64,000 nucleotides of DNA from Cliona cf. orientalis (lineage: Eukaryota > Porifera > Demospongiae > Clionaida > Clionaidae): the NCBI GenBank assembly GCA_963930775.1, contig OZ005696.1, positions 4,030,001 to 4,094,000 on the forward strand, given 5' to 3'. The translations under genes were made by a program, and so were the position numbers. Each line of letters begins with the position of its first letter. The stretch's first letter is position 1. Shown piece after piece: positions 29,685-49,900 of this stretch. Below the pieces are notes generated by a model that saw only the letters and a program-made list of their open reading frames with translations, did no database searches and was not told the origin of the DNA.

Positions 29685-31187
29685 TTAGATTTGTAGGTTT
29701 GTCATTAAATCCTCAATTTCTCTGTTTTTCTTAGGTGGAACTGATGATTGTAAATCAATAAGTGATGGTACTTCCTTTGCATGACTTGCTGGAGGAGAGC
29801 CACCATGACTAACATGAGTGGTGGAGGGTGGGGCGAAACCAGCTGCTGTAGGAGAGGCACTGTGACTAGCATGAGCGGCGGAGGGTGGGACGAAACCAGC
29901 TGCTGGAGGAGAGGCACCGTGACTAGCATGAGCGGCGGAGGGTGGGACGAAACCAGCTGCTGGAGGAGAGGCACCGTGACTAGCATGAGCGGCGGAGGGT
30001 GAGACGAAACCAGCTGCTGTAGGAGAGGCACCGTGACTAGCATGAGCGGCGGAGGGTGGGACGAAACCAGCTGCTGTAGGAGAGGCACCGTGACTAGCAT
30101 GAGCGGCGGAGGGTGGGACGAAACCAGCTGCTGTAGGAGAGGCACCGTGACTAGCATGAGCGGCGGAGGGTGGGACGAAACCTGCTGCTGGAGGAAAGGC
30201 ACCGTGACTAGCATGAGCGGCGGAGGGTGGGATGAAACCAGCTGCTTGAAGAGAGATACTGTGACTAGTATGAACGGTGGAGGGTGGGATGAAACCAGCA
30301 GAGGCACCATGACTAACATGAGCGGCGGAGGATGGGATGAAACCAGCTGCTGTAGGAGAGGCACCGTGACTAGCATGAGTGGCGGAGGGTGGGACGAAAC
30401 CAGCTGCTGTAGGAGAGGCACCGTGACTAGCATGAGCGGCGGAGGGTGAGACGAAACCAGCTGCTGTAGGAGAGGCACCGTGACTAGCATGAGTGGCGGA
30501 GGATGGGAAAAAACCAGCTGCTATAGGAGAGGCACCATGACTAGCATGAGCGGCAGAGGATGGGACGAAACCAGCTGCTCTAGGAGAGGCACTGTGACTA
30601 GCATGAGCGGCGGAGGGTGGGACGAAACCAGCTGCTGGAGGAGAGGCACCATGACTAGCATGAGCGGCGGAGGGTGGGATGAAACCAGCTGCTGGAGGAG
30701 AGGCACCGTGACTAGAGGGAGGGTTTCCAGTGTAGTGAGCTGTGAAATTAGGTGAACGACTGATTTGAGGAGAAGCAGGTGTGAGGGGATCAATGTAGGC
30801 TGATGAAGCTGTAACATATCGTCTGTTTTTCTTTCCTCTTCTTGTTGCTTTCTTGTATGGGTGATATCCCTCAGCTGTATAAAAGTATGAGTACTTGTAG
30901 ATATGTGTGGTCACCTACTGGACTAATAAAATAAATTTACCTTGTGATGGCCATTTTTTTTCAAGTTCGTTTAACCTCCTTTCTCGTAAGTTTAGTTGCT
31001 TCTCCCTTTCTGCCAGTTGTTCAGCTGTTGCTAGCTCTATTGATCATATATATATATAGCTATTCAATCATTACATTACCTAAAGAAAACAGATCTTACT
31101 GGACAAAACTTCACCCATAGCTTCACCTTGTAGAAAGAACTCATGCTGCCTGCTTAGGATACCCTTTTTATAGTAGTACCAGGTACA
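29685..31187 (-). CDS. Unidentified protein with sixteen 19-residue Ala/Pro/His repeats (partial 5' end)
   Basis: Three exons join in phase on the minus strand: 31187-31100, 31036-30941 and 30874-29685 (stop). The introns are 63 and 66 bp, and the product is about 457 residues. The N-terminal part (WYYYKKGILSRQHEFF, then AEQLAEREKQLNLRERRLNE) is charged and predicted coiled coil. A basic patch (KKATRRGKKNRR) follows. Then come sixteen units like SHGASPPAAGFVPPSAAHA, 57 bp each. One unit is 9 bp shorter, which keeps the frame. The C-terminus is VPPKKNREIEDLMTNLQI. Further 5' exons are likely. An alternative is a start at the ATG at 31118, with TATAAAAAGG at 31172-31163 as promoter. No family recognised. 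Confidence 0.65.
29800..30720. repeat. 57-bp coding minisatellite
   Basis: About sixteen tandem 57-bp units lie inside the minus-strand gene. Because 57 is a multiple of three, all six frames are partly open, which produces several false ORFs on both strands. The frame joined to the spliced N-terminal exons is the supported one. Confidence 0.92.
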
Positions 31188-33312
31188 CTGTCAGAGGGGT
31201 AACTTTATCTAGTACAGTGTACATGTAGTTGCCATGGCAGTATCTGAGGGTAGTGTATTATGGGTAGCATGCATTGTACATACTTATGTCATACATTTAT
31301 ATGATGGAGTGGCTACACCACCTACCCTAGGTGTGGCCTCTCCAATAATGTATACATTTGATTTGTGCTATTACTATGACAAGTGTAAAAGAAATTGATT
31401 GGGCAGACATGGTGCACCCTACTGACCTTTTATTTCAAGTAGTATTATAGGAAGATACATGTAATTTAGGGAATTACCTAGCTGTTGTTATTCCCACTAT
31501 CTTTATTAGTGCTCCTTATGTACCTTTTATGGTGCTACCATCATTACTTATTTTTGAAGTTTATTGCACTGTAGCAAGTCAATTGAGAAATTCAATGATG
31601 AATATTCTATAGTATCCATAATTATGAAAGTTAACTAAACGTTTGATTCCTGGTTTTATCAAGTTACAAATAGATGTGTGAATTAGTGCCTGCATATGTA
31701 CATATATAACTGAAATGTACTACGTACGTGCATTCATACACACACCTGCGCAAACCCTTCTCTTGTACATGCAGGATCATAGCATGATTCTAGAGAAGTT
31801 GTAGGGCAGTCCCAAGATCACCAAGGACAGAGTGACCATTGCCAAGGGATGGAGATAGAGTACAGGAATCAAAACATAAGAGCTCATCTCATCAGGATGT
31901 GGCTAATGACACTACACTATAACTTGTTATGCTAGCTGCAGGTGCGTTACTCTCATGTACATATACATGTAGGTGGTATTATTGTGTGTCAATGACACAT
32001 GGCAAGCTACATGTATGGAAGAATGCTCCCAAAGTGCTCTCTGGAATAAAGTTTAGACTCTGCATGCATTTCTGAGGCCTTCTAACATTTTCTAGCTTTG
32101 GTTGACACTGCACAGATTAGGAGGGTATACTCTCTGAAAATGGGAGGGAGATTGAATCTCCTTTATACTATTATAATTATGATAGCTACGGTAACAGCAT
32201 TTAATGTCACTTAGCAGTAGAGCATTCCATCATAGACAGGTCATGTTCACAAAAGCTGCCCTACCCCATAATTTAATTAGTGTACAGCATTGGTGTATAT
32301 ACTATAGTATGTACATGTACTTCAGAGCAGATGGATACCCTTAAGGTATGCGTAGTTCTGGGTAACTACATGACCCTAAACATGCATATTATTGCTTAAC
32401 TGATTGATATCCTGTAGAAATACTTTTGGCCAAGCTAATAATTCTAGATAGGAAGTGTGGGGTAGCATCCATATCATGGGGTAGCATGGATGTAATTCTT
32501 AAGACCTATGAAGATTCTTAGAGACAGTTGAGCTAAAGAATAACTGAGATTGTCTATCATGGAGCCTGGAGATACTTTTTATGTGAGTATAGTGTTAGAC
32601 ACTGTTATCTATAAAAGATACAGACAGTGAAGGGCTCTAATTTCTGTAAAACCCTTGTTATCCAAACAGAGCTCTTCACTCTTCTGTATTACGTACATTT
32701 TAGAAATTTCCTAAAGATTCAAGCCCTTCTCTCATATTTGGACAATACCGTAGGATTGTTATGGTGTGTGGTATTTTTAATTTTGGGACTATGCGAATTT
32801 TTTTCGAAACCACACAATTAAAAATTACAAAATAAACCTGCACATTACATACATTGTACAATAGGGTGGCCGATCAAGGCGCATACCGCGTACACATGGT
32901 GAATACCAGTCAATATATATAATTTGCAATCCCCTAGTAAGTGCTCAGTCTGTTTGGCCAAGCTGTACAACAGGTTTAGTCTGGAAAGAGCCAGAGAGAA
33001 GTACACTGCTGATATTCACAAACTACTGATGAGTATTTTCAGCGTTAATCACCTCTTCCAAGGGCTTATAGCCCTTGCCTCCACTAGATCAGGTAGTCTT
33101 GTGCCAAGATCCCACCCTCGAGGATGGAATCTGTCTCCTGAAATTATTGCATAAACTTTACCTCACATAGTAGCCACACACATGTGTGGACACAATTAAG
33201 TGGGTGTGGTCACGGTCGCAAGCGCTGAGTGATTGTTTGATAGCGGTACCAGTAAAGCATGGCAGAAGATGTCCTTGGCTTGGTTCTATTATTTATTTTA
33301 TCACAGCTTGAC
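31188..33312. other. Intergenic, no supported gene
   Basis: AT-rich sequence without convincing exons. Further 5' exons of the minus-strand repeat-protein gene could lie here, but I could not find a phase-compatible one. 32750-33150 is a diverged copy of the repeat at 16300-16640. Confidence 0.5.
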
Positions 33313-34490
33313 TACAGTGGACTCTCTATTAACGGACACTCCCAATAACGGACACTGCTATATACAGTCGAGCCTCCGTGGGAACGGGCCCCTTGTCCTT
33401 TGTTCGGAGGTTGTCCCTATCTCGGAGGTTCATGATTTTTCAATCCATTTTGATTGTATTATCCTTAACAAGTTAGTAAATGCACTGAAATGCATGATAA
33501 GAGCAGTAGAGATGGTAATCAAGTGGTTGGTATGTTCTGTTTTCAGTGTCAACATAGCACAGGCTGAATTTTTTTTGTTTCTGAAGTACTGGCTACTCTG
33601 GATTCAAGGAGAATATTATTATCGCGCATGCGGCATAATATCGCGACCGCCTAGATTGCGGCAAAAGTGGGTGTGGCACCGTTAATTTAAGGGCGTGGTT
33701 TCCGGATGTCTGCTATTTAGAGGCATTTTTGCATTGAAAAGTCACGTTGGGAGCTTGGATCTTGTCCGCTGTCCGGAATCGAGAAGCGTCCTCTTCTCGG
33801 AGGTTGCTAATGTACTATATTAAACTATGCTAAATTCAATCGGTAACACGGCACTTGTCCGCTATAGGGAGGTTGTCCGCTTCTCGGAGGGTCCGTTATC
33901 GGAGGCTCGACTGTATATGTACCAACCGATATCTCCATATGTTTAATACAGTAGCAGCACCTGAATAGTGGACAACCTCCGAATTCCGGATAACGGACAC
34001 AGCAGCTTGCACGAAGTAATACAGTACAATACAAAAAACGTTCCGACTAACGGACGGAGGTGGGTGTGGCTGACCCCGCCCACGACCTTCTTATACCATG
34101 TCATGCAGTTCATGGCATTATTAACAATCTATACAAGATGGCAATACATGTAGACACTCTAAAAAATGGTAGTACTTTGTCTAGCTATAGTAATGACAAC
34201 AGCCACTGCTTTACTTGCTCAAATGGCAAGTAGCTAGCCATTCATCCACCATAATGCAATTGACACTCGTCGAGTCAATCACCTCTAGATCTTTGAAACA
34301 GACTGAATAGTGCAATACAATGTCATGAAAACACTTGAGTATGTCATAAATTTCTTTATTATTGGCTATAAAATTAATATTAGATGAAGTGGGGTGTAAC
34401 TAAAGTAGAACACCCCAATAAAGGACATACCCCGAATAAAGGACAGAAGCCTGTGTACCAAGGTGTCCGTTGTTCGGAGAGTCCACTGTA
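33313..34490. mobile_element. MITE with TACAGTGGACTCTC termini, containing another MITE
   Basis: Begins TACAGTGGACTCTCTATTAA and ends GAGAGTCCACTGTA, with AACGGACAC/GTGTCCGTT repeats inward of both ends. A second element occupies 33363-33915. The outer body resumes after it (GTGGACAACCTCCG, ATAACGGACAC). Non-coding. Confidence 0.8.
33363..33915. mobile_element. Inner MITE with TACAGTCGAGCCTCCG termini
   Basis: Starts TACAGTCGAGCCTCCG and ends CGGAGGCTCGACTGTA, a 16-bp perfect inverted terminus next to TA. It is nested in the element at 33313-34490 and so is younger than it. Internal GGAGGTTGTCC motifs echo the outer family. Confidence 0.88.
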
Positions 34491-34716
34491 TTCGAAATGT
34501 GCTCCTGGAAAACTGGTCTATCGTGTTAATTTATGACACCAAGAGGTGCTGCTTCCAAATTAATAATAACTGCCCTTGATTAGCAGCTGCACTCCAGCAA
34601 GGCTGAAACTATTAATTTTGAATAATCCAAACTAAATGATTGATGATATTCATAAGTTTACATAAATTGCAGTTTCAAACTCTATTTATAGAGCTGTTTG
34701 TCCTGATATTATTTAG

Positions 34717-37700
34717 GAAGGTGATGCTAGTGATAATGAAAGAAGCGATTGTGACAGGAATGATGACAGTGATTCTTTTGATGATGAATGGGATGTATCC
34801 TTTACTAGTCAGTCAGCAAATGATTCGATTTATCTTCCCACACCACAACGTCAGTTTAAGAATAGTTTAAGTAGGGTTACTGCAAACAAACTTTGTTTTA
34901 TGAATTTGTCTCAATTAGACAAATTTATGGAACAGGTGAACAGTATTCGTAGTTGTATCACTCCCCAGTGCAGTGGTATATTAATTCCAGTACATGTAAG
35001 AAGCACTGGTCTTGGAGGTGCCATATCTGTAAGCTACACTTGTAGTGGTTGTGCATCTCATTCAGCTCTCTTTGAGACATCCTCAAAGTATGAGCTTACT
35101 AATACCAGTGAAATCAGTGTTGCTGTTCAGGTGGCTTTCATAGTGGCAGGTTGTACCCATGCCACATACTGGAAGACCCTAAAACATGCCCTAGGAATTG
35201 ATGCTGTTCATATGAGTGCATTTTTGTCCACTATTGAGAGAATATATCCAGTCGTTAAACAAATGGTGGATGAAATGTGTGATAAAGCAAAGCAAGAAAT
35301 GAAAAACATGGACCAAGATAAACTTGGTTCATGGAGCCGCGCTGTCACATCAGCGGATGGTGTATGGATGACGCGTGGGTGGCATAGCAAAAATGCCACA
35401 TTTAGTATCCGGAATTATTTTACTGGAGCTCTTCTTTATCGTATGCATTTATGCCAGCGTGGCAGAGACAAAGTAATAAAGGAAGATCTATACCAAGGGA
35501 CATCCAAGGGAGCTGAGGGCTTTGCTGCACGTAAAACGTTTACAAAAGCCAAAGAGGAAGGTATGAATGTTGAAATTCATTGGCAAGATGCCGACTCTTC
35601 CTCTTCCAAAGGAGTAGCTGAGTTATTCCCTGATGCCAGGGTAATGATATGTGGTGGCCATGCAGGTAGAGCTCACATGAAACAGCTACAAAAACTGGCC
35701 AAAAAGAAATCACCCACAAAAGATATGATAGGAAAGTATAGTGATCAATTCCCTCAAATTAATGAAGCAGTCTGTCACTGCAAGGAAAAGCACTCACCTG
35801 GATGTGGATGCTTATCAGAACAATTTATAGAGAAAGCTCGAAACAACTTTTCTCTTATCCTATCAAAAAGTGAGTCAGCAGAAATGTTTGCTACAAAGAT
35901 TAATGCTTTGGCCAAACATGCATGTGATGTGCATAAATGGGATAATGGGTGTTGTGATTTTCATTCACAGCGAGTGTGTAGTTGTAATCATTGTGAGGAT
36001 AAGGAGAATTTTAAATGTGAAGGACAGGACTACCACACAAGGCTTAAGCTCACTTGCCCATTCCACTCATTAGCGTATGAAATTGAATGTCATGTCAGAG
36101 CACAGATGGCCGAGCAGGTAGTTCACCCCATACTTAAACGAGGCCACTCTAATTGGCTTGAAGCCTCTCACAATGTGCTTATCCGGTTCAGGCCAAAGCA
36201 CATTAACTTGGAGAGGCTTCATTATGAGCTGTCCACCGATCTAGGCCTATTACAGTCCAACATGACTTACATGTATGAATTGCATGGACCACAGTATCAC
36301 TGGATCCCTGAATTGTACAGGCGATTAAAACTTCCAGTGTACGATGGCATTCAACAGGCACTAGAGGTATTCAATCAGCAAAGAAAGGTAGCACTTGATA
36401 AACTTAAAACAGATGAAGCGAAAAGGAAGAGGTTGCAATTAAAGATGAAGAGAACTAAGGAATCACAAATCCGTAAGGCTTGGTCCAAGAAACATGGCCA
36501 TGACACTTATGGTGATGAAGCTGAAGATATAGAGCATGATCATAGCTTGATAAATAGGGGGAAAAAGCGACAAAAAGCTTCTGAAGGGAAATGTGCAGCA
36601 TGTGGGTCTACCACTCACAGGCGATCCAACCACAAGGACTGCCCTTTTAACAAAAGGAGAAAAATTGAGATTTCTACTCTAAAGCACACTGATAGTATAC
36701 CAGAGGATGGTGACATACAGGTGCAACAAGGTGACCTTCAAGATGATAGTGAAGAACTCGATGAATCTTTTAGTAGTAGTTCTGATGACAGGGTACTTGA
36801 CGATGAAGTTATTAGTGGTATTTTGTGTGTATGTGGGGCTATAAACCGAGCTCACAAAAGTAGTTGTCCTATGAGCTCTAGGAATTATCCCAGTAGAGTC
36901 CTCTTTCCTTCTAATGAAGATGCCCCTAATGAAACTGTTGCGCCAACTACTAAACTAGAGGCTATCAAACCAGATGTAGCAGAAATAAATCATAAAAATA
37001 AGGTTAAGCCTTTTCCCTCATTTGTGCCTGGTACTTGTGTTTGTTTGCACAATAGTAAATTAATTAAGCAGCACATTCCATGCCGTATTGTGAGAGTTGT
37101 GGGTGAACGTTATCAGTTATGTTGCAAGAAAGGTATCCTTGATATGCCATACCCAGGTCAAGAATTAATGACCTCTAATAATGACCCCCCTATTCCACTT
37201 GATAAATGGCGTCAAAGTTCCAGAGTATCACTTCGTCATGTTATTAGTGATCCCTCATGTCTGGAAAGTTGCACCTGCAACTTTTCTGGGACTTCTTTAC
37301 CTACATGTACCATCGTCCTCTCAGATGATTCTGATGATGCCCCCAAAAGGAATGATGTGTGGCTTCAAAACCTATTGTATACTCTTACTATCAGTGAGCA
37401 GGAAATAATACTGTCACCTATTGGTTGGCTAAATGACAGTATCATTTCAGCTGCTCAAATGCTCATGCTGCAGCAGTTTCCTCATATGACTGGGCTCGAA
37501 CCACCCACACTCGCACAGACCATGGCTTTTCAAGTGCACAGGGGAGATTTTGTTCAAATCCTGAATATTAGAAATTGTCATTGGTGTACGATTTCCAATA
37601 TAGGTTGTGAGGAGGGTGTAGTTAATGTGTATGATAGCATGTACTCTTCAGTATCTACTGATACCATTCGCATTATTGCCAGCATGATGCTTAGCTCTGC

Positions 37701-38091
37701 CTCAAAGCTTGTAATAAGAATGATGGATGTTGTGAGACAAATTAACGGTTCAGACTGTGGGGTCCTGTCCATAGCCTTTGCATATGATCTTTGTAGTGGT
37801 GTTGATCCCTGCAGAGCTAGGTATGATCACAAGTTAATCAGACAGCACTTATTGAAGTGTTTAGAAGACTGCCACCTCTCTCGTTTTCCCGTAGTAAGTG
37901 ACCGAAGGATTACCAGGGTAAAATGCACCCAAGAGGTAGACCTTCACTGTTCTTGTCGATTGCCTGAGGAGGAAGGTGATGAAATGGCAGAGTGTGATTC
38001 ATGCAAGCGGTGGTATCATAGACATTGCATGGATATACCACAAGAAGTTTTTAGTGGTATGGATGTCCCTTGGACATGTAAATTGTGCTGA
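34717..38091 (+). CDS. Mutator-like DDE transposase region - ULP1 protease - PHD finger fusion
   Basis: An open frame runs from an acceptor (ATTATTTAG/GAAGG) to the stop at 38091. The first ATG is at 34900 and gives 1063 residues; 61 acidic Ser/Asp-rich codons precede it in frame, so an upstream exon is likely. Counted from 34900: a DDE-like core with D153 (TSADGVWMTRGW), D230/D232 (WQDADSSSSKG) and E421 (NWLEASHN), as in Mutator-like transposases; Cys/His clusters (CHCKEKHSPGCGC; CNHCEDKENFKC); a basic coiled segment; a CAACGSTTHRRSNHKDC knuckle; a ULP1/C48 protease with H894 (CHWC), D912 (VYDS), Q947 and C953 (GSDCG); and a terminal PHD finger from about 1016. ULP1 enzymes cleave SUMO-type conjugates and PHD fingers read histone tails. 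The transposase assignment is the least certain part. Intact, so possibly active or domesticated. Confidence 0.8.
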   Translation, partial: EGDASDNERSDCDRNDDSDSFDDEWDVSFTSQSANDSIYLPTPQRQFKNSLSRVTANKLCFMNLSQLDKFMEQVNSIRSCITPQCSGILIPVHVRSTGLGGAISVSYTCSGCASHSALFETSSKYELTNTSEISVAVQVAFIVAGCTHATYWKTLKHALGIDAVHMSAFLSTIERIYPVVKQMVDEMCDKAKQEMKNMDQDKLGSWSRAVTSADGVWMTRGWHSKNATFSIRNYFTGALLYRMHLCQRGRDKVIKEDLYQGTSKGAEGFAARKTFTKAKEEGMNVEIHWQDADSSSSKGVAELFPDARVMICGGHAGRAHMKQLQKLAKKKSPTKDMIGKYSDQFPQINEAVCHCKEKHSPGCGCLSEQFIEKARNNFSLILSKSESAEMFATKINALAKHACDVHKWDNGCCDFHSQRVCSCNHCEDKENFKCEGQDYHTRLKLTCPFHSLAYEIECHVRAQMAEQVVHPILKRGHSNWLEASHNVLIRFRPKHINLERLHYELSTDLGLLQSNMTYMYELHGPQYHWIPELYRRLKLPVYDGIQQALEVFNQQRKVALDKLKTDEAKRKRLQLKMKRTKESQIRKAWSKKHGHDTYGDEAEDIEHDHSLINRGKKRQKASEGKCAACGSTTHRRSNHKDCPFNKRRKIEISTLKHTDSIPEDGDIQVQQGDLQDDSEELDESFSSSSDDRVLDDEVISGILCVCGAINRAHKSSCPMSSRNYPSRVLFPSNEDAPNETVAPTTKLEAIKPDVAEINHKNKVKPFPSFVPGTCVCLHNSKLIKQHIPCRIVRVVGERYQLCCKKGILDMPYPGQELMTSNNDPPIPLDKWRQSSRVSLRHVISDPSCLESCTCNFSGTSLPTCTIVLSDDSDDAPKRNDVWLQNLLYTLTISEQEIILSPIGWLNDSIISAAQMLMLQQFPHMTGLEPPTLAQTMAFQVHRGDFVQILNIRNCHWCTISNIGCEEGVVNVYDSMYSSVSTDTIRIIASMMLSSASKLVIRMMDVVRQINGSDCGVLSIAFAYDLCSGVDPCRARYDHKLIRQHLLKCLEDCHLSRFPVVSDRRITRVKCTQEVDLHCSCRLPEEEGDEMAECDSCKRWYHRHCMDIPQEVFSGMDVPWTCKLC

Positions 38092-39865
38092 TATCTCCCT
38101 TTATTGATCAATGTTCCCTTCACTACATATACGTGTCACTTACTGGTATACAGCTGGGGATTCTGTCATCAGATATATATAAAGTGCATTCTATAACTGT
38201 GAGTAGAGACACTGTAATGAGAGCTCCCATAATATGTAAGTACTAATAAACGCAAGATATAATTAGCACAAGAAATTCGCATTCTAGGATTGATATATCT
38301 TAACGTAGACAGTGACAACCTTTAACAAAAAATGGCACGAATGTTAAAGTCTTTATTATTATTAGCTTTTGTTCTATTAGAATAAACACGGTAATCTCTT
38401 TCCAACCAAGAATAAGACTGTGGTGACATTTTGAGTGGTTTGTTGAGTTTGCAAGATCAGCAATTAATAGTATGGCTTGATTGCAATATGAGCTTGCACA
38501 ACCAATGAATTTCTCAATTGTTATCAAACTCCTTTCCTCAGGAGTGGTAAGGGGGTGTTCCACAAAATTAATGCGGAATCAAAGCCTTCCATAATTTTTT
38601 GGTGATGCCTCAAGCAAGTGAGCTCCTCCAGTTATATTTTTTGTGCACTGCATAACAGGATCTTATAAAGGGGGGCAAAAATACCCTCAGTATGTGGTGC
38701 TGCACTAAACTTGTCAGCTGCTCCAGTTAATACCGTAATTTACAAATTGTTTGTTGCTAAAGTTTCATTTTATACAAAGTGGCAAAATATTTTACACGAA
38801 ATAGTTCATCTGTACTAACTTGTACAGTGAATATATGACATACGTTAAAGATTATTACTTGAAATTTGTAGCACAAATTACAAACAAAATTAATGTGAAT
38901 TATGGTAGTATGGAGTTGTATTCATGCAGCAATATGTGATCCTATACAAATTCCTAGAGTATGAGAGGGTGGAAGGGTGGGAGGGCAGCAATTGCAGTAC
39001 CACCTCCTCGATGATGGTGCTGCCTGGGATCTCAGATGTACATAATTATTAATCTGAGGTGCGAAGTGTACTGCCTTGCTATTCCTCATGCTCATACTCG
39101 CATACTAGATCACAATTTTTATACTATGTGTATATACAACGAAAAGTACTTTTCAGACGATCATTTTTTTTTCATATAATCCGTATCGGCGTATCCTAAC
39201 CTGGAGGGCATGAAAGATATGCGCTCTTCTACAAGTTCAAAAGGCCCACGATTGGTCAGATTTGCAGTGCCACGTGCACAAACAAGGGTGGCCATAGAGA
39301 TGCATAATTTCTCAAACAAATGGTGCGAAGTGCCACGCGTTTCGAGAGGCCTGCTCAGCAAGCCACCGAGCCTCGAGCACAGCGAGAGACGAGGTCTATT
39401 CTTTATCATAGCCTGGTGTAGTCTAGCGGAGCCAGAACCTTACGTGGGGGGAGAGGGTCTGGTGACTTGCTATACACGGAATTGTTCCGGCACCCTGCAC
39501 AGGGCGGCACCAATCAGATTGCAGCATTACTCATTACCGCATTCCTGGTGCGGTTGTTTCCGCGATAACATTGCGCTCGCGTTAAACAAATCAACATGCT
39601 TCTGCGCGCTGCTTAGCGCCTAGTCTCACGGAGCCAGAATTAATAAAAAACACAAGTGACTTAGTAACTTGCCATTTTTAACACAGTGAGCTTCATCAAC
39701 TATTAGTGCAATGAGGTGAGTCGAGTAAGGTTCATGCCTGATTGTCGTGTTAGCAGTCAGCCCCTACAATATAAATGCAACCATCTTTCATAGTATAGCA
39801 GCAGGCATGATACTTCAGTGGTATAACATTCTGACTGTGTCCGTGGTCAGTACGTAACTAACTAG
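38092..39865. other. Intergenic, repeats and unassigned open frames
   Basis: Holds an 88-codon minus-strand frame (38300-38563) without recognised motif and a TACCGTAATTT repeat terminus at 38734. It also has a loose inverted pair around 38945-39110 and a repeat with GTCTAGCGGAGCCAG / GTCTCACGGAGCCAG ends at 39420-39640. None is supported as a gene. Confidence 0.45.
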
Positions 39866-40299
39866 CACTCGTCTCCTGATATCTCTAAGTACAGACGTGT
39901 GGAAATGTTCCATAGCTGCACGGAATTGAGTGTGAAGGAACAAATAATTAAATCGTTTACAGAACTTGATTCACATCTAAAAATAGCAGTGGCGACTATT
40001 GCTTTTGGGATGGGTATAGACTGCCCAAATATACATCGAGTCATCCACTTTGGGCCGGCCAGCAGCATTGAAGATTATATCCAAGAGCAGGCCGAGACGG
40101 TCTACCTTCAACTGCACTACTATGGCATCACATAGGTAGAAGAGTACACATGGATGATTGTATAAAAAAGTACATTGAGAACACTACAATGTGTCACAGA
40201 GATTTGATATTCAGTGATTTTGATGGCAGTGATAATATTAAAAAATGTAGTTGCTGTGATATATGTGCAGTAGTATGCAATTGTTCAGATTGCTCATAA
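39866..40299 (+). pseudogene. RecQ-type helicase fragment, frameshifted
   Basis: The frame encodes the C-terminal RecA-like domain: EMFHSCTELSVKEQIIKSF, VATIAFGMGIDCPNIHRVIH and SSIEDYIQE. The expected ETGRAGRDG motif VI is damaged; about 10 nt are missing and the frame shifts. In the next frame GRDGLPSTALLWHHIGRRVH and a Cys-rich tail (CSCCDIC) continue to the stop at 40299. Helicase motifs I-IV lie in no visible exon upstream. It faces the DUF6589 relic tail to tail. RecQ-like genes of this type are multi-copy in corals and sponges, often near DUF6589, which suggests a mobile origin. Confidence 0.82.
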
Positions 40300-46997: not shown

Positions 46998-49900
46998 ATG
47001 GAGTTCATAGCTGTAAGGTGGATCCTTCGAGACTCAGAACCTCTAGGGAAGGTGGGGAAGGTGTATCTCCAAGACATTCTCACTGTAAACGGGAACACGG
47101 TGGAGTCAGCTCAATCAGACGTCATTCCAGGAGATATCATCACGGTTAGGGGACAGTCGGAGTCAGTTGCCGGTGCTGTGGTCCTGCCAAAGGGTGGTAG
47201 CGTGCGAGGTGGAAAGAGGCCACTTGCCGCAGTAGCTGCAGACTGCGCCGACTTGGGAGCGGCTAAAAAGCGCAAGTGTAAGTCTATAGTATAGTTAGCG
47301 GCGGATTCCACAGTGTGCAAAATATTCTGAATTGCATGCAGACAAGCAGCAGTATAAAAACAATGGATACTTGTTTGGCAGCGAATGCATAATTTTATGG
47401 CACAAATCTCTTATTCACTGTAGATTCTACCAAAGAAGGAAGCCCCCACTCTTTGCAATTGGATACAGGTGAGGCAGTATTATACTTGACAACAGTATGC
47501 TTATATCATTGGGCTATTGGGCTATTCCATTTAATAAAGATACACCCCTATGGAGGAACACTTGTACTTTTCAACATCAAGACAGACTTCATTAATTTAG
47601 AAAAACATGTAACGACGCAAATGCGATCCCGACCCGTTCGCAATACACCCGCCGTGATCGCTGGACGATATGGATGGGAGGGGCTGGGAGGTCAGGGGAT
47701 GGGTTGCGAATGGTTAGCAGGGTTAGTGTGGGAGGGGCTGGGAGGTCTGGGGGTGGGTTGCGAATGGTTAGCAGGGTTAGTCTCTAGGGTTTGCCTATAC
47801 GTGGACTGGAGGGGCTGGGTTGTGAATGGTTAGCAGCGTTAGTGTGGGAGGGGCTGGATTGTGTTGGGTTTATCTATAAAATAGTTGAAATAACGGCTGC
47901 TAGCAGCAACAACGGTTGTGGCCGAGTGCTGGGCTCTTATGTATGGGACGGTATAGAGCGGGTTCGAATCTTGCCGTACACTTTGACTTTTTTCTTTTTT
48001 TTCCCTGTCGAATTTTTCTAAGTGTTGATAGATCGCATTTGCGTCATAACAAAACATACATTGAGACAAATTATTATATCCTCCACTATACCATTACAAG
48101 TGAGACAAGCCAAGGAAAACTAAGCATATTGAGTGGGTGTAGTTTGGTTACCACATCAAAGAAATAATTTAATATCATACTGGCAAGTAATTATGGGGGG
48201 GATGCTAATTTTGTGGAAAGTCCAAGAAAGCCATCAGAATTAATAATTTTTGTGGTTTTAAATTTCATACCCAGTCCTGGAATGCAGCGCTGCGCAAACA
48301 ATGACGTAGTTGATACACGCATGCACTTATGATCTTGCTAAAATCATTTATCACCAAGCCACTTCTGCAAAGAAACTTGGACAAATAGCATGAGATAGAA
48401 CAATATTAGGGTTAGGGTTAGGGTTAGCTGGATGACAGTAGTGATTAATATTTGTTACTACGTAATACTGAAAAAGTTTAATTGGCCACGCTTCCATGAT
48501 GTTTTTGGCTGTAGACGCCCCTCATATACTGCTGGCATTACTTTTCTGGGTGGTGACTACCAAGTTAACCATGAAAATAACGAAAACTAGCACCCCATAA
48601 AATTATCCACCATATGGTATCATGCATACTGAACATGTGGGAGATGCAAGTCTATATGCTAAAAGCCCACTGCAATTCAACCCCCATGATTACACCTGTA
48701 CATGTCCATCTCTAATGTATAATGTACACAAAGAATAATTAATCAGTAGTTTAAAAGTTTCGCCAGTATTTATGGAATGGGGACATCTCCAGTTTGCTTG
48801 AAAGAGTAGGGGCAGGTACTTGTTCTGTACACATGTTAGTTGCATAAAATTTAATAAGGTAGATCAGATCAGTTAATTGTCTCTCCTCTCTAGCAGTTGC
48901 AGCATCTATCTATTAAGCGATTGTAAGAGTCCTTATGATAATGGTAGGACATTTTTCCGACGAATAGCCAGTATATGTCCGGTCATTGACTTGATCACTT
49001 TTTCAATGCCACCATTCAACAGTGCAGTTCAAGCACTAATGATTGACTAGCATCCTGTTTACTAGTTCAGGCTGCACTGCAGTAGCTGTCACTCTGTCAA
49101 CTTGGAGGCTGGCTTGGGGTGGGCCTAGCACCCACCAACTACACTGACCACAATGACTCAGCAGCTGTACATCTGCTAGTGGTACTGTGCTTTGCAGGTC
49201 AGTTGTCTAGGAAAAGTTAGGGAATGGCACCTATCTCTGTCACTATATAGCCTTTGTGACTTGTAGTATAACTGAATGAAGCACTTGAGAGCCACTGCCT
49301 ATTTGCCCTTTCCACTGGACAACTGACTTGCAAAGCACAGTATCAAGAGTATACTACTAGAGATGATGTTATAACATCAATATGGGGCGAGCCTCCGCAA
49401 ACCCCACACAAGTACAAATGATTTGGTATACAGATCGGAATTAATTTTATGATTGACTCGAGGGAGTGGAAACTACAGTTAGCTTAGCTTGGAACATGTC
49501 TCTAGCTACTCATAGTTCAGCGATGATTATTTTGCTAGCAACAGTCACTTGTTCTTGATCTTTTTAGGGCCTTGAATCGCCTTAAATTTGGAGTCTCACA
49601 TGGGACCCTCTGCACTCAAAATGTTTCACTCTGCCTGCCTAGAAAGACATATTTTCTCTGTAGCCTTGCCCCTCTCAGTCTGAGTCTCTGCAGTTTTCCT
49701 TTTGAAATTTCTGATATTTGTTTCTGCGTTTCTCAGTCTTTCTTCCTTTTTAGCCGCTCGATGTCACAGAGCTTGCCCTCTTTCTCTAGCTCTATTTGAA
49801 GTGTTCGCTCCACTCTCGCGCATTGCTTGTTGTATGTGCATGCGCGTAACGGAAGATATATTGCATATCGTTGATTCAGAAATAGAAGACGGGTATATAC

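Follow-up and report, generated by a model that had tools for sequence, protein, structure and literature searches.

A conserved HDV-like ribozyme fold behind the genes of a Mutator-like transposase family in the sponge Cliona cf. orientalis

What distinguishes a transposase gene that is fused to a SUMO protease and a PHD finger and has stayed open over about 3.4 kb: the fusion itself, or something else that its family carries along? The gene in question lies in a stretch of 64,000 nucleotides of contig OZ005696.1 of the sponge Cliona cf. orientalis (the window), the positions of which are used throughout. Its unbroken frame could be verified as a single open exon on the forward strand, 34717-38091, with 1124 codons and no stop, encoding a transposase, a Tudor/SH3-like barrel, a C48 protease and a PHD finger. 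The in-frame TAG directly before it (34714-34716) is at the same time a splice-acceptor-like AG (34715-34716, forward strand) at the 5' end of the long exon, so that the exon probably starts at 34717; a pyrimidine-rich stretch and an AG followed by G occur at the same place in the other copies compared. A search for an upstream coding exon of the window gene revealed repeats only. The first ATG of the frame is found at 34900, from where the original prediction counted its residues. Numbered from 34717, its D153, D230/D232 and E421 are D214, D291/D293 and E482, and its H894, D912, Q947 and C953 are H955, D973, Q1008 and C1014, each of which is present in the frame.

The assignment to the Mutator-like transposases was borne out by the relatives of the gene and not by the window protein, for which Pfam reported no transposase model and no match to PF20700 (Mutator-like transposase). 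Relatives with 63-69% identity to the window copy in the alignment match positions 6-347 of the 357-position PF20700 profile above the cut-off, with 52.4 bits for copy L027 against a cut-off of 26.5, and 11 of the 55 genome-wide PF20700 rows are copies of this family, the window copy not being among the 55. Scores within the family range from 27 to 61 bits, while PF20700 genes outside the family score as high as 286 in this genome. According to the alignment with copies L021 and L027, the homologous region of the window spans 34912-35935 on the forward strand and contains D214, D291 and D293. In an alignment of the transposase part (A2, 14 copies picked for open frames), D291 and D293 are invariant in all rows, D214 is lost in one (L032), and E482 (codon 36160-36162, forward strand), the candidate third acidic residue, is kept in all 13 rows reaching that position. 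The residues of the proposed DDE-like triad are present, but E482 lies outside the PF20700-matched stretch that holds the conserved aspartates, which leaves the third acid without alignment to a known DDE family. The AlphaFold2 model based on A2 (mean pLDDT 46) was too low in confidence to read an RNase H fold. Assignments to Ginger1 and to KDZ were rejected, the former due to the lack of any integrase model and the latter due to the lack of Pfam support, in each case among the matches of the window protein and the 14 rows of A2.

Both sequence and Pfam support the full C48 catalytic set and the C4HC3 PHD finger that had been predicted. The Ulp1/SENP-like protease (37330-37920, forward strand; Peptidase_C48, E 1.5e-5, above the cut-off) carries H955, D973, Q1008 and C1014, and is followed by the PHD finger (37948-38088, forward strand; E 1.6e-6, above the cut-off), with PHF2 as nearest solved relative. 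The four protease residues as well as the cysteines and the histidine of the PHD finger are invariant across 11 copies that were likewise picked for open frames (C-terminal alignment A3). We take the methyl-lysine cage of the window PHD finger to be incomplete, the W and M of PHF2 being kept and its two Tyr replaced by H and E. A small beta-barrel at 37024-37290 (forward strand), Tudor/SH3-like in predicted structure, is a tentative second reader domain; it is the only confident part (block mean pLDDT 61-87) of an AlphaFold2 model that was calculated from A3 and has a pLDDT of 43 as a whole. Foldseek searches with this barrel gave a best E of 0.021, with Tudor domains from E 0.024 and nothing at E ≤0.001. 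It is not the protein fusion that is new at this locus, however, but a conserved HDV-like ribozyme fold behind the transposase gene.

This ribozyme region of 143 nt lies on the strand of the gene at 38957-39099. Based on alignment, Rfam and a descriptor of HDV topology, the ribozyme extends from P1 to P2 over 38983-39074 and is predicted to consist of P1 (38983-38989/39019-39025, with a G.U at the predicted cut), P2 (38994-39000/39068-39074), P3 (39002-39004/39016-39018), P1.1 (39006-39007/39026-39027), P4 (39029-39037/39052-39060) and J4/2 (39061-39067), which includes the candidate catalytic C39062. The predicted cut, directly 5' of P1, falls between 38982 and 38983, and is adjoined on its 5' side by a G-rich, quadruplex-like leader (38957-38982) with 25 of 26 columns invariant over seven sequences. 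The first nine bases of this leader (38957-38965) pair with 39091-39099 to form an outer stem, P0; all these parts are on the forward strand. The original prediction ended upstream of this region and made no mention of a conserved ribozyme fold 3' of the gene.

The alignment of this first type (A1) contains seven of the 13 sequences found by model R1, near-duplicates being omitted, and all seven display the nested double pseudoknot with P1, P2, P3, P1.1 and P4 in HDV order. The fold comprises 37 pairs, with 99.6% of 259 cells paired and seven pairs showing two-sided changes, while partners slid by one to three columns pair in only 30-47%. All nine pairs of P0 are kept in every sequence, its three changes all leading to G-U, and G-U replacements are also seen in P2, P1.1 and P4; further pair types were not above shuffled alignments (215/500). 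Among 4227 Rfam families, HDV_ribozyme (RF00094) was the best on 38975-39085 (25.9 bits, E 0.024), aligning in register from P1 to J4/2, and in this register the cytosine at the start of J4/2 (C39062 and its counterparts) follows a single G, which the RF00094 consensus also has at this place. The gathering score of 50 was not reached, which by this measure places the window ribozyme outside the Rfam family, HDV was absent from the Rfam matches of larger stretches, and no Rfam hit in the window reached gathering level. Comparison of the window with six copies gave 96-100% identity for the leader and 82-91% for the core, whereas the window exon is 64-67% identical at the DNA level. Conservation is low in the 16 bases that follow P2, with four invariant columns. 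Moreover, 29 of the 30 type 1 matches in the genome begin within the first three bases of the leader, which, judged from these sequences, is the most conserved part, though catalysis should not need it. The final run of G in this leader doubles as the first P1 strand. When pseudoknots are left out of the calculation, the window stretch has a minimum-energy fold other than the HDV-like one, a competing fold being predicted for the whole 143 nt.

The descriptor recovered the type 1 sites and, unprompted, a second type behind copies L018 and L021-L027, which differs from the first in the sequences of P1, P2, P3 and L3. It had been written after type 1 was seen and gave a bonus for the type 1 L3; with a score of at least 22 it produced 25 matches in 322 kb, 24 of them at ribozymes of the elements, and none in ten Markov replicas. 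Swapping the catalytic base yielded 18, 21 and 17 matches for A, G and T against 25 for C, a comparison that does not discriminate because the J4/2 rule of the descriptor is loose. Type 2 has 41 pairs including a leader hairpin, with 100% of 326 cells paired (21-48% for slid partners) and two two-sided changes, both in L027. Its leader is a 13-bp terminal hairpin that ends one base before the predicted cut; two such hairpins are stable, with -17.8 kcal/mol (z -5.5) and -19.8 kcal/mol (z -6.6). Taken by itself, the ribozyme of type 2 does not stand out in stability, 11/200 shuffled sequences doing equally well. Rfam did not match HDV on type 2. Two HDV-like ribozymes of unrelated appearance are predicted behind one protein family.

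A ribozyme was detected in 21 of the 26 copies examined, 13 by model R1 (type 1) and eight by the descriptor (type 2), whereas neither method revealed one in the other five. Wherever a listed copy lies within 20 kb of a ribozyme (39 cases), the ribozyme is downstream of that copy on the same strand, namely 17/17 for type 1 (among 30 genome matches) and 22/22 for type 2 (among 40 scored matches). On these alignments and positions, we hold both the HDV-like fold and its tie to the transposase family to be very likely. The ribozyme is not supported as the end of the element, since the distance from gene to ribozyme lies anywhere between about 80 bp and more than 2.5 kb and the repeated unit extends more than 5 kb past the ribozyme. 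A role of the conserved block as terminal inverted repeat was discarded, each copy having one block in a single orientation. The only two AATAAA of the window's gene-ribozyme interval sit in an inserted genome-wide repeat, SINE-like in length (38243-38393). Missing poly(A) signals were dropped as support for a ribozyme-made end, as the lack of AATAAA/ATTAAA before the ribozyme is within chance (probability of none 0.26-0.99 per segment).

Counting of genomic copies, as originally suggested, revealed a multicopy family with at least 42 stretches related to the window gene, 27 of them near full length and free of stops. From the unbroken frame, recent activity or selection had been proposed. Purifying selection on the protein is supported by nine comparisons between copies, which gave dN/dS values of 0.07-0.18 for the transposase part; synonymous sites are saturated between the window exon and the compared copies. 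Recent activity of the window copy is not: its 3' region exists once in the genome, the inserted repeat aside, and the closest relatives among the matches listed show about 60% protein identity. Members of the Mutator superfamily have terminal inverted repeats and target duplications of 8-11 bp. Neither these expected features nor an element end were found, including in 10-kb loci, and the ends of the repeated unit lie beyond the stretch compared; apparent ends near the exon and near the ribozyme were discarded because near-identical pairs are homologous for kilobases beyond. Searches for protein relatives in viral contigs and phages, and for exact leader matches in viral and prokaryote contigs, found none.

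A single-copy 3' region would also suit a host gene that was domesticated and is no longer a transposon copy, and so would a frame that is intact at about 60% identity to its nearest listed relatives, with no copy above that level, and ribozyme pairs that are intact in the window. We consider domestication unlikely, as intact frames are usual in the family (besides the window copy, 26 or more that are nearly full length and free of stops) and the window copy retains the ribozyme of the transposons.

On balance, we lean towards a Mutator-like transposon family in which an HDV-like self-cleaving ribozyme behind the gene generates the 3' end of the transposase transcript. The window gene would encode the protein of this multicopy PF20700 family, combining transposase, Ulp1-like protease and PHD finger. 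In a transcript that presumably runs on past the gene, the ribozyme would fold and cleave directly 5' of P1 (38982/38983 in the window). The transposase RNA would thereby obtain a defined, unpolyadenylated 3' end formed by the conserved structured leader, G-rich with an outer stem in type 1 and a 13-bp terminal hairpin in type 2, and selection would act on this end of the upstream cleavage product. Judged from sequence, the ribozyme RNA probably cleaves; a role in forming the 3' end of the transposase RNA is quite possible, if short of probable. It is a more speculative and rather doubtful step that a DNA-transposon lineage terminates its transposase mRNA with a self-cleaving ribozyme in place of poly(A), the structured end stabilising or exporting the RNA or marking it for the transposase, and the ribozyme being kept over the whole history of the family and on one occasion replaced by another HDV-like ribozyme or altered into one past recognition.

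Cleavage might instead serve the downstream product, the ribozyme making a 5' end, as it does in R2 and L1Tc. A second RNA would then start downstream of the transposase gene, and would either belong to a non-LTR retroelement or be a small non-coding transcript of the element. Such a role is described for retrotransposon HDV-like ribozymes in the available parts of the literature (PMC8256844, PMC7761336, PMC3774820); no listed gene is near 13 of the 30 type 1 units and 18 of the 40 that were scored for type 2, and the repeats of a unit that ends in the ribozyme share a fixed junction, with eight rows starting at query 260. However, the copies read have no long ORF downstream of the ribozyme, three downstream ORFs show no Pfam match, and 0/58 reverse-transcriptase rows on five contigs (C1, C2, C6, C8, C16; the best rows there, taken from the 150 scored of 2002 candidates) lie within 20 kb of the 70 ribozymes, so that the reverse transcriptase expected downstream of a 5' ribozyme was absent among the rows and ORFs compared. 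With the most conserved bases upstream of the cut and not behind P2, this 5'-end role seems improbable to us. We likewise doubt a self-limiting device, in which loss of poly(A) through the cut in the 3' UTR holds down the amount of transposase, the G-rich leader perhaps acting as a switch: the overlap of its G-runs with P1 and the competing fold would agree with a switch, but the widely variable gap and the type 2 leader, a hairpin and not G-rich, argue against it. It is very improbable that the block acts at the DNA level, for instance as a site bound by the transposase, and resembles a ribozyme by accident. It is element-associated and strongly conserved, and being G-rich with a palindromic outer stem it might bind a protein; but the seven two-sided changes and the G-U replacements in four stems are of the kind seen where RNA pairs, the topology recurs in type 2 with other letters, RF00094 aligns in register, and the loci compared yielded no inverted partner copy.

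In the available parts of the cited literature, the animal mobile elements that carry HDV-like ribozymes are retrotransposons, and the ribozyme releases their 5' end. If true, the preferred account, in which a ribozyme makes the 3' end of a transposase RNA, would add DNA transposons to the carriers of such ribozymes, indicate a possible eukaryotic 3'-end role comparable to that of phage theta ribozymes, and raise the question of how translation would work on an mRNA that has no poly(A) tail independent of the ribozyme. Two ribozymes of unrelated appearance behind one family would bear on how often the fold has arisen or been replaced. The proposal is directly testable, as it names 143 nt, a bond and an active-site base.

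Compared with known systems, the protein architecture of a DNA transposase with ULP1 and PHD is a known kind of fusion, published for Ginger1 and Mutator transposases such as Ginger1-9_HM, whose Ulp1-PHD parts have been aligned (PMC2836005, in its available part). Like these, the window protein carries Ulp1 and then PHD at its C-terminus; unlike it, Ginger1 has a Gypsy-type integrase core, and the same part of that source mentions no ribozyme. With the PF20700 transposases the family shares relatives above the cut-off, while its divergent scores, its C-terminal Tudor/SH3-like, C48 and PHD domains and the ribozyme behind the gene set it apart from other PF20700 genes. Our literature search found no HDV-like ribozyme in a DDE transposon. 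The ribozymes of the non-LTR retrotransposons R2, RTE and L1Tc (PMC3774820, PMC8256844, PMC7761336, as far as available) resemble ours in the nested double pseudoknot of P1, P1.1, P2, P3 and P4, the J4/2 cytosine and the mobile-element carrier, but they form the 5' end of the element RNA together with a reverse transcriptase, whereas ours stand behind a DDE-type transposase gene and have a conserved structured leader upstream of the predicted cut. Comparable in proposed function are the small, HDV-like theta ribozymes of gut phages, which, according to the available part of PMC10879173, may make the 3' end of an upstream RNA, a tRNA; these are minimal and without P4, whereas the ribozymes of the window family have P4 and follow a eukaryotic transposase gene.

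The gene at 34717-38091 on the forward strand is an unbroken open frame of 1124 codons, and its protein contains all the residues named in the original prediction. Pfam also placed the predicted C48 protease (Peptidase_C48, E 1.5e-5) and PHD finger (E 1.6e-6) above cut-off. Among solved structures, the protease comes nearest to a Ulp1-like protease (E 0.001), then to SENP1 (E 0.0018), and the PHD finger to PHF2 (E 4.2e-7). A small barrel between transposase and protease was the sole part modelled with confidence by structure prediction, with Tudor domains among its best, weak matches (E from 0.024). The Mutator-like identity was borne out by relatives but not by the window protein itself, in which no Pfam match to a transposase domain was found; PF20700 (Mutator-like transposase) matched the related copy L027 with an E value of 5.2e-14 (52.4 bits; cut-off 26.5), and PF10551 (MULE) matched weakly in 6 of the 14 aligned rows of the family. 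Genome-wide, PF20700 gave 55 rows, 11 of them on copies of this family (profile positions up to 6-347 of 357) and none on the window copy, and 0 rows in 14 control genomes. The first two positions of the proposed acidic triad fall inside the PF20700-matched part, but the third, E482 (E421 in the prediction), lies outside. The same genome carries PF20700 genes with open frames scoring far higher (210-286 bits) at G000:C1:2565236, C16:2526348, C12:5868601, C6:71243, and C14:2796562. Fusion of Ulp1 and PHD to a transposase is already in print, and the window protein is an ordinary member of that known kind: in the work by Bao and colleagues, Ginger1 transposases carry Ulp1, Ginger1-9_HM carries Ulp1 plus PHD, as the window protein does, and the Ulp1-PHD part of Ginger1 is aligned with Mutator transposases (PMC2836005).

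A splice-acceptor-like AG marks the exon start, with a similar site in the compared relatives, and a search for a coding exon upstream of 34717 found none. Two nested MITE-like elements, at 33302-34501 and 33360-33918, lie 0.2 kb upstream of the exon and have inverted arms of 25 nt (84% identical) and 19 nt (100%). Farther upstream, a minisatellite at 29787-30715 (57-bp unit, 16.5 copies) contains open frames of 261 aa on the reverse strand and 135 aa on the forward. At 39940-40120, a fragment with stops in the single frame translated looks, by eye, like C-terminal sequence of a RecQ-type helicase.

In the genome (216.8 Mb, 149 contigs), protein search revealed at least 42 matched stretches, window included (best 41 of 571 candidates scored), and at least 27 of the 42, again with the window, span 1,070 or more query residues without a stop. 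Among the matches listed, stop-free, near-full copies other than the window show about 60% protein identity to it; the copies fall into groups, with 93-99% identity inside a group and about 57-60% to the window protein. Purifying selection acts on the transposase part, with dN/dS at 0.07-0.18 in nine copy-copy comparisons; the C-terminal part gave 0.16-0.43 in seven, and synonymous sites between copies and window are saturated or nearly so. Since it is about 60% identical to its relatives, keeps an open frame and has a 3' region that occurs once in the genome, an inserted repeat excepted, the window copy is intact but old, and stands isolated in a family that is otherwise multicopy. The earlier argument for recent activity or selection thus stands for selection on the transposase part among copies, but not for a young window copy.

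Comparison of copies uncovered a conserved non-coding block lying 0.1-0.9 kb downstream of the gene, at 38957-39099 in the window. Seven aligned sequences support one structure of 37 pairs, with the nested double pseudoknot that characterises HDV-like ribozymes. P1 has seven pairs and closes, on its open side, with a G.U that is the same in all seven sequences, P1.1 has two, and P2, P3, P4, and an outer stem, P0, complete the fold. Pairing is kept in 258 of 259 cells (99.6%), with two-sided changes at 7 pairs (15 cells), while slid partners gave 30-47% paired; each observed value was equalled by 0 to 4 of 500 shuffles, except for the number of further pair types (215 of 500). As an independent check, among 4227 Rfam families the best match to the 111 bases at 38975-39085 was HDV_ribozyme, RF00094 (25.9 bits, E 0.024, under the gathering score of 50), with an alignment that spans P1 to J4/2 and takes in L3 and P1.1; RF00094 was not among the Rfam matches when larger stretches were searched. 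Between the window and six copies, identity is 96-100% in the leader (38957-38982), 82-91% in the ribozyme core, 42-61% in P4, 31-44% in the bases after P2 and 89-100% in the 3' strand of P0, compared with 64-67% for exon DNA. The three changes in P0 all lead to G-U, and 29 of 30 type 1 genome matches start at position 1, 2 or 3 of the leader. Four GGG runs occur at 38957-38989, and because the last is the first strand of P1, a G-quadruplex there and an active ribozyme would be mutually exclusive.

The model built from these seven type 1 sequences, R1, detected 13 of 26 sources. A topology descriptor (a seven-pair P1 with G as its first base, at least 5 pairs in P2 and 3 in P3, P1.1, and a cytosine in J4/2), composed when type 1 was known and type 2 not yet seen, recovered the type 1 sites plus a second type behind eight more copies (L018, L021-L027), which differs in P1 (GGGTCAC/GTGACCT), P2, P3, and L3. 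Over 322 kb on both strands it gave 25 matches of score 22 or more, 24 of which fall on ribozymes belonging to 21 different copies (three of the scanned loci being represented twice); the other, at 47166-47315 (score 22, many G-U pairs, no associated gene copy), is probably due to chance. Ten Markov replicas gave 0 matches, and swapping the catalytic base gave no discrimination because the J4/2 rule is loose. Type 2 pairing is kept in 326 of 326 cells, with two-sided changes at two pairs; L027, a divergent copy, accounts for both, and one of them turns C-G into G-C in P3. Rfam did not recognise type 2. Upstream of its predicted cut, and separated from it by one base, lies a 13-pair hairpin with folding energies of -17.8 and -19.8 kcal/mol (z -5.5 and -6.6).

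A ribozyme lies behind the gene in 21 of 26 copies examined (13 type 1, 8 type 2). The exceptions are a rearranged copy (L013), one missing the gene end (L016), one broken up (L028), and two (L017, L032) in which the DNA examined stops short of the position expected from relatives. By DNA query, the genome holds 30 type 1 matches (all 30 candidates scored) and at least 40 type 2 matches (best 40 of 107 scored); among gene copies listed, 17 of the 30 and 22 of the 40 have one within 20 kb, and all 39 such ribozymes are downstream on the same strand, which represents fewer than 39 independent events since the copies are not independent. For 31 of 70 no gene copy lies within 20 kb among the matches listed; some are derivatives, as in the L037 unit, where the ribozyme, together with a piece of the 3' region, is joined to other repeated sequence by a junction common to eight rows. 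In the protein tree one clade is type 1 and another type 2; two type 1 members, L030 and the window, and the type 2 member L027 sit at the base with uncertain placement. Contig C1 (37.5 Mb), much bigger than the other contigs seen, holds 63 of the 70 ribozyme matches, 0 of them below 14 Mb and all at 14-37.5 Mb, and likewise most of the gene copies among the matches listed; it may have a long arm that is rich in repeats, heterochromatic or sex-linked. At L037 and G000:C1:29399453-29413499, ribozyme units follow a tandem-like arrangement with a block longer than 5 kb, which has no long ORF and is found again on C1 at 84-100% identity.

HDV-like ribozymes cleave directly 5' of P1, and their catalysis should need no particular sequence upstream of the cut. 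In the window the predicted cut is 38982|38983, and the upstream product would be a transposase RNA bearing the G-rich leader (type 1) or the hairpin (type 2) as its 3' end. Conserved, structured bases upstream of the cut in both types, presumably dispensable for catalysis, lead us to infer that this product is what matters. Several observations count against a ribozyme-made 3' end: the gene-to-ribozyme distance varies from about 80 bases to more than 2.5 kb, the pseudoknot-free minimum-energy fold of the window stretch differs from the ribozyme fold, and the stability of the type 2 ribozyme by itself is unremarkable. AATAAA or ATTAAA is absent before the ribozyme, bar two in the window's inserted repeat and two in an L022 insertion (last 89 bases only for four type 1 copies), but shuffles give equal absence, so we rejected this scarcity as support. 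Alternatively, the ribozyme could be the start of a downstream RNA, against which no reverse transcriptase or other protein was found near the ribozymes among the matches listed.

The literature on ribozymes and transposons, subscription journals mostly outside, yielded no HDV-like ribozyme in a DDE transposon, which is no proof of novelty; the fold thus appears here in an element class for which we found no described case, and the 3'-end hypothesis is testable. According to one report, phage HDV-like ribozymes are associated with tRNA 3' ends and the catalytic base is the cytosine that opens J4/2 (PMC10879173). In the reports on mobile elements, R2, RTE, L1Tc and other LINEs carry their HDV-like ribozymes at the 5' end (PMC8256844, PMC7761336, PMC3774820), whereas in the family described here they lie behind the transposase gene.
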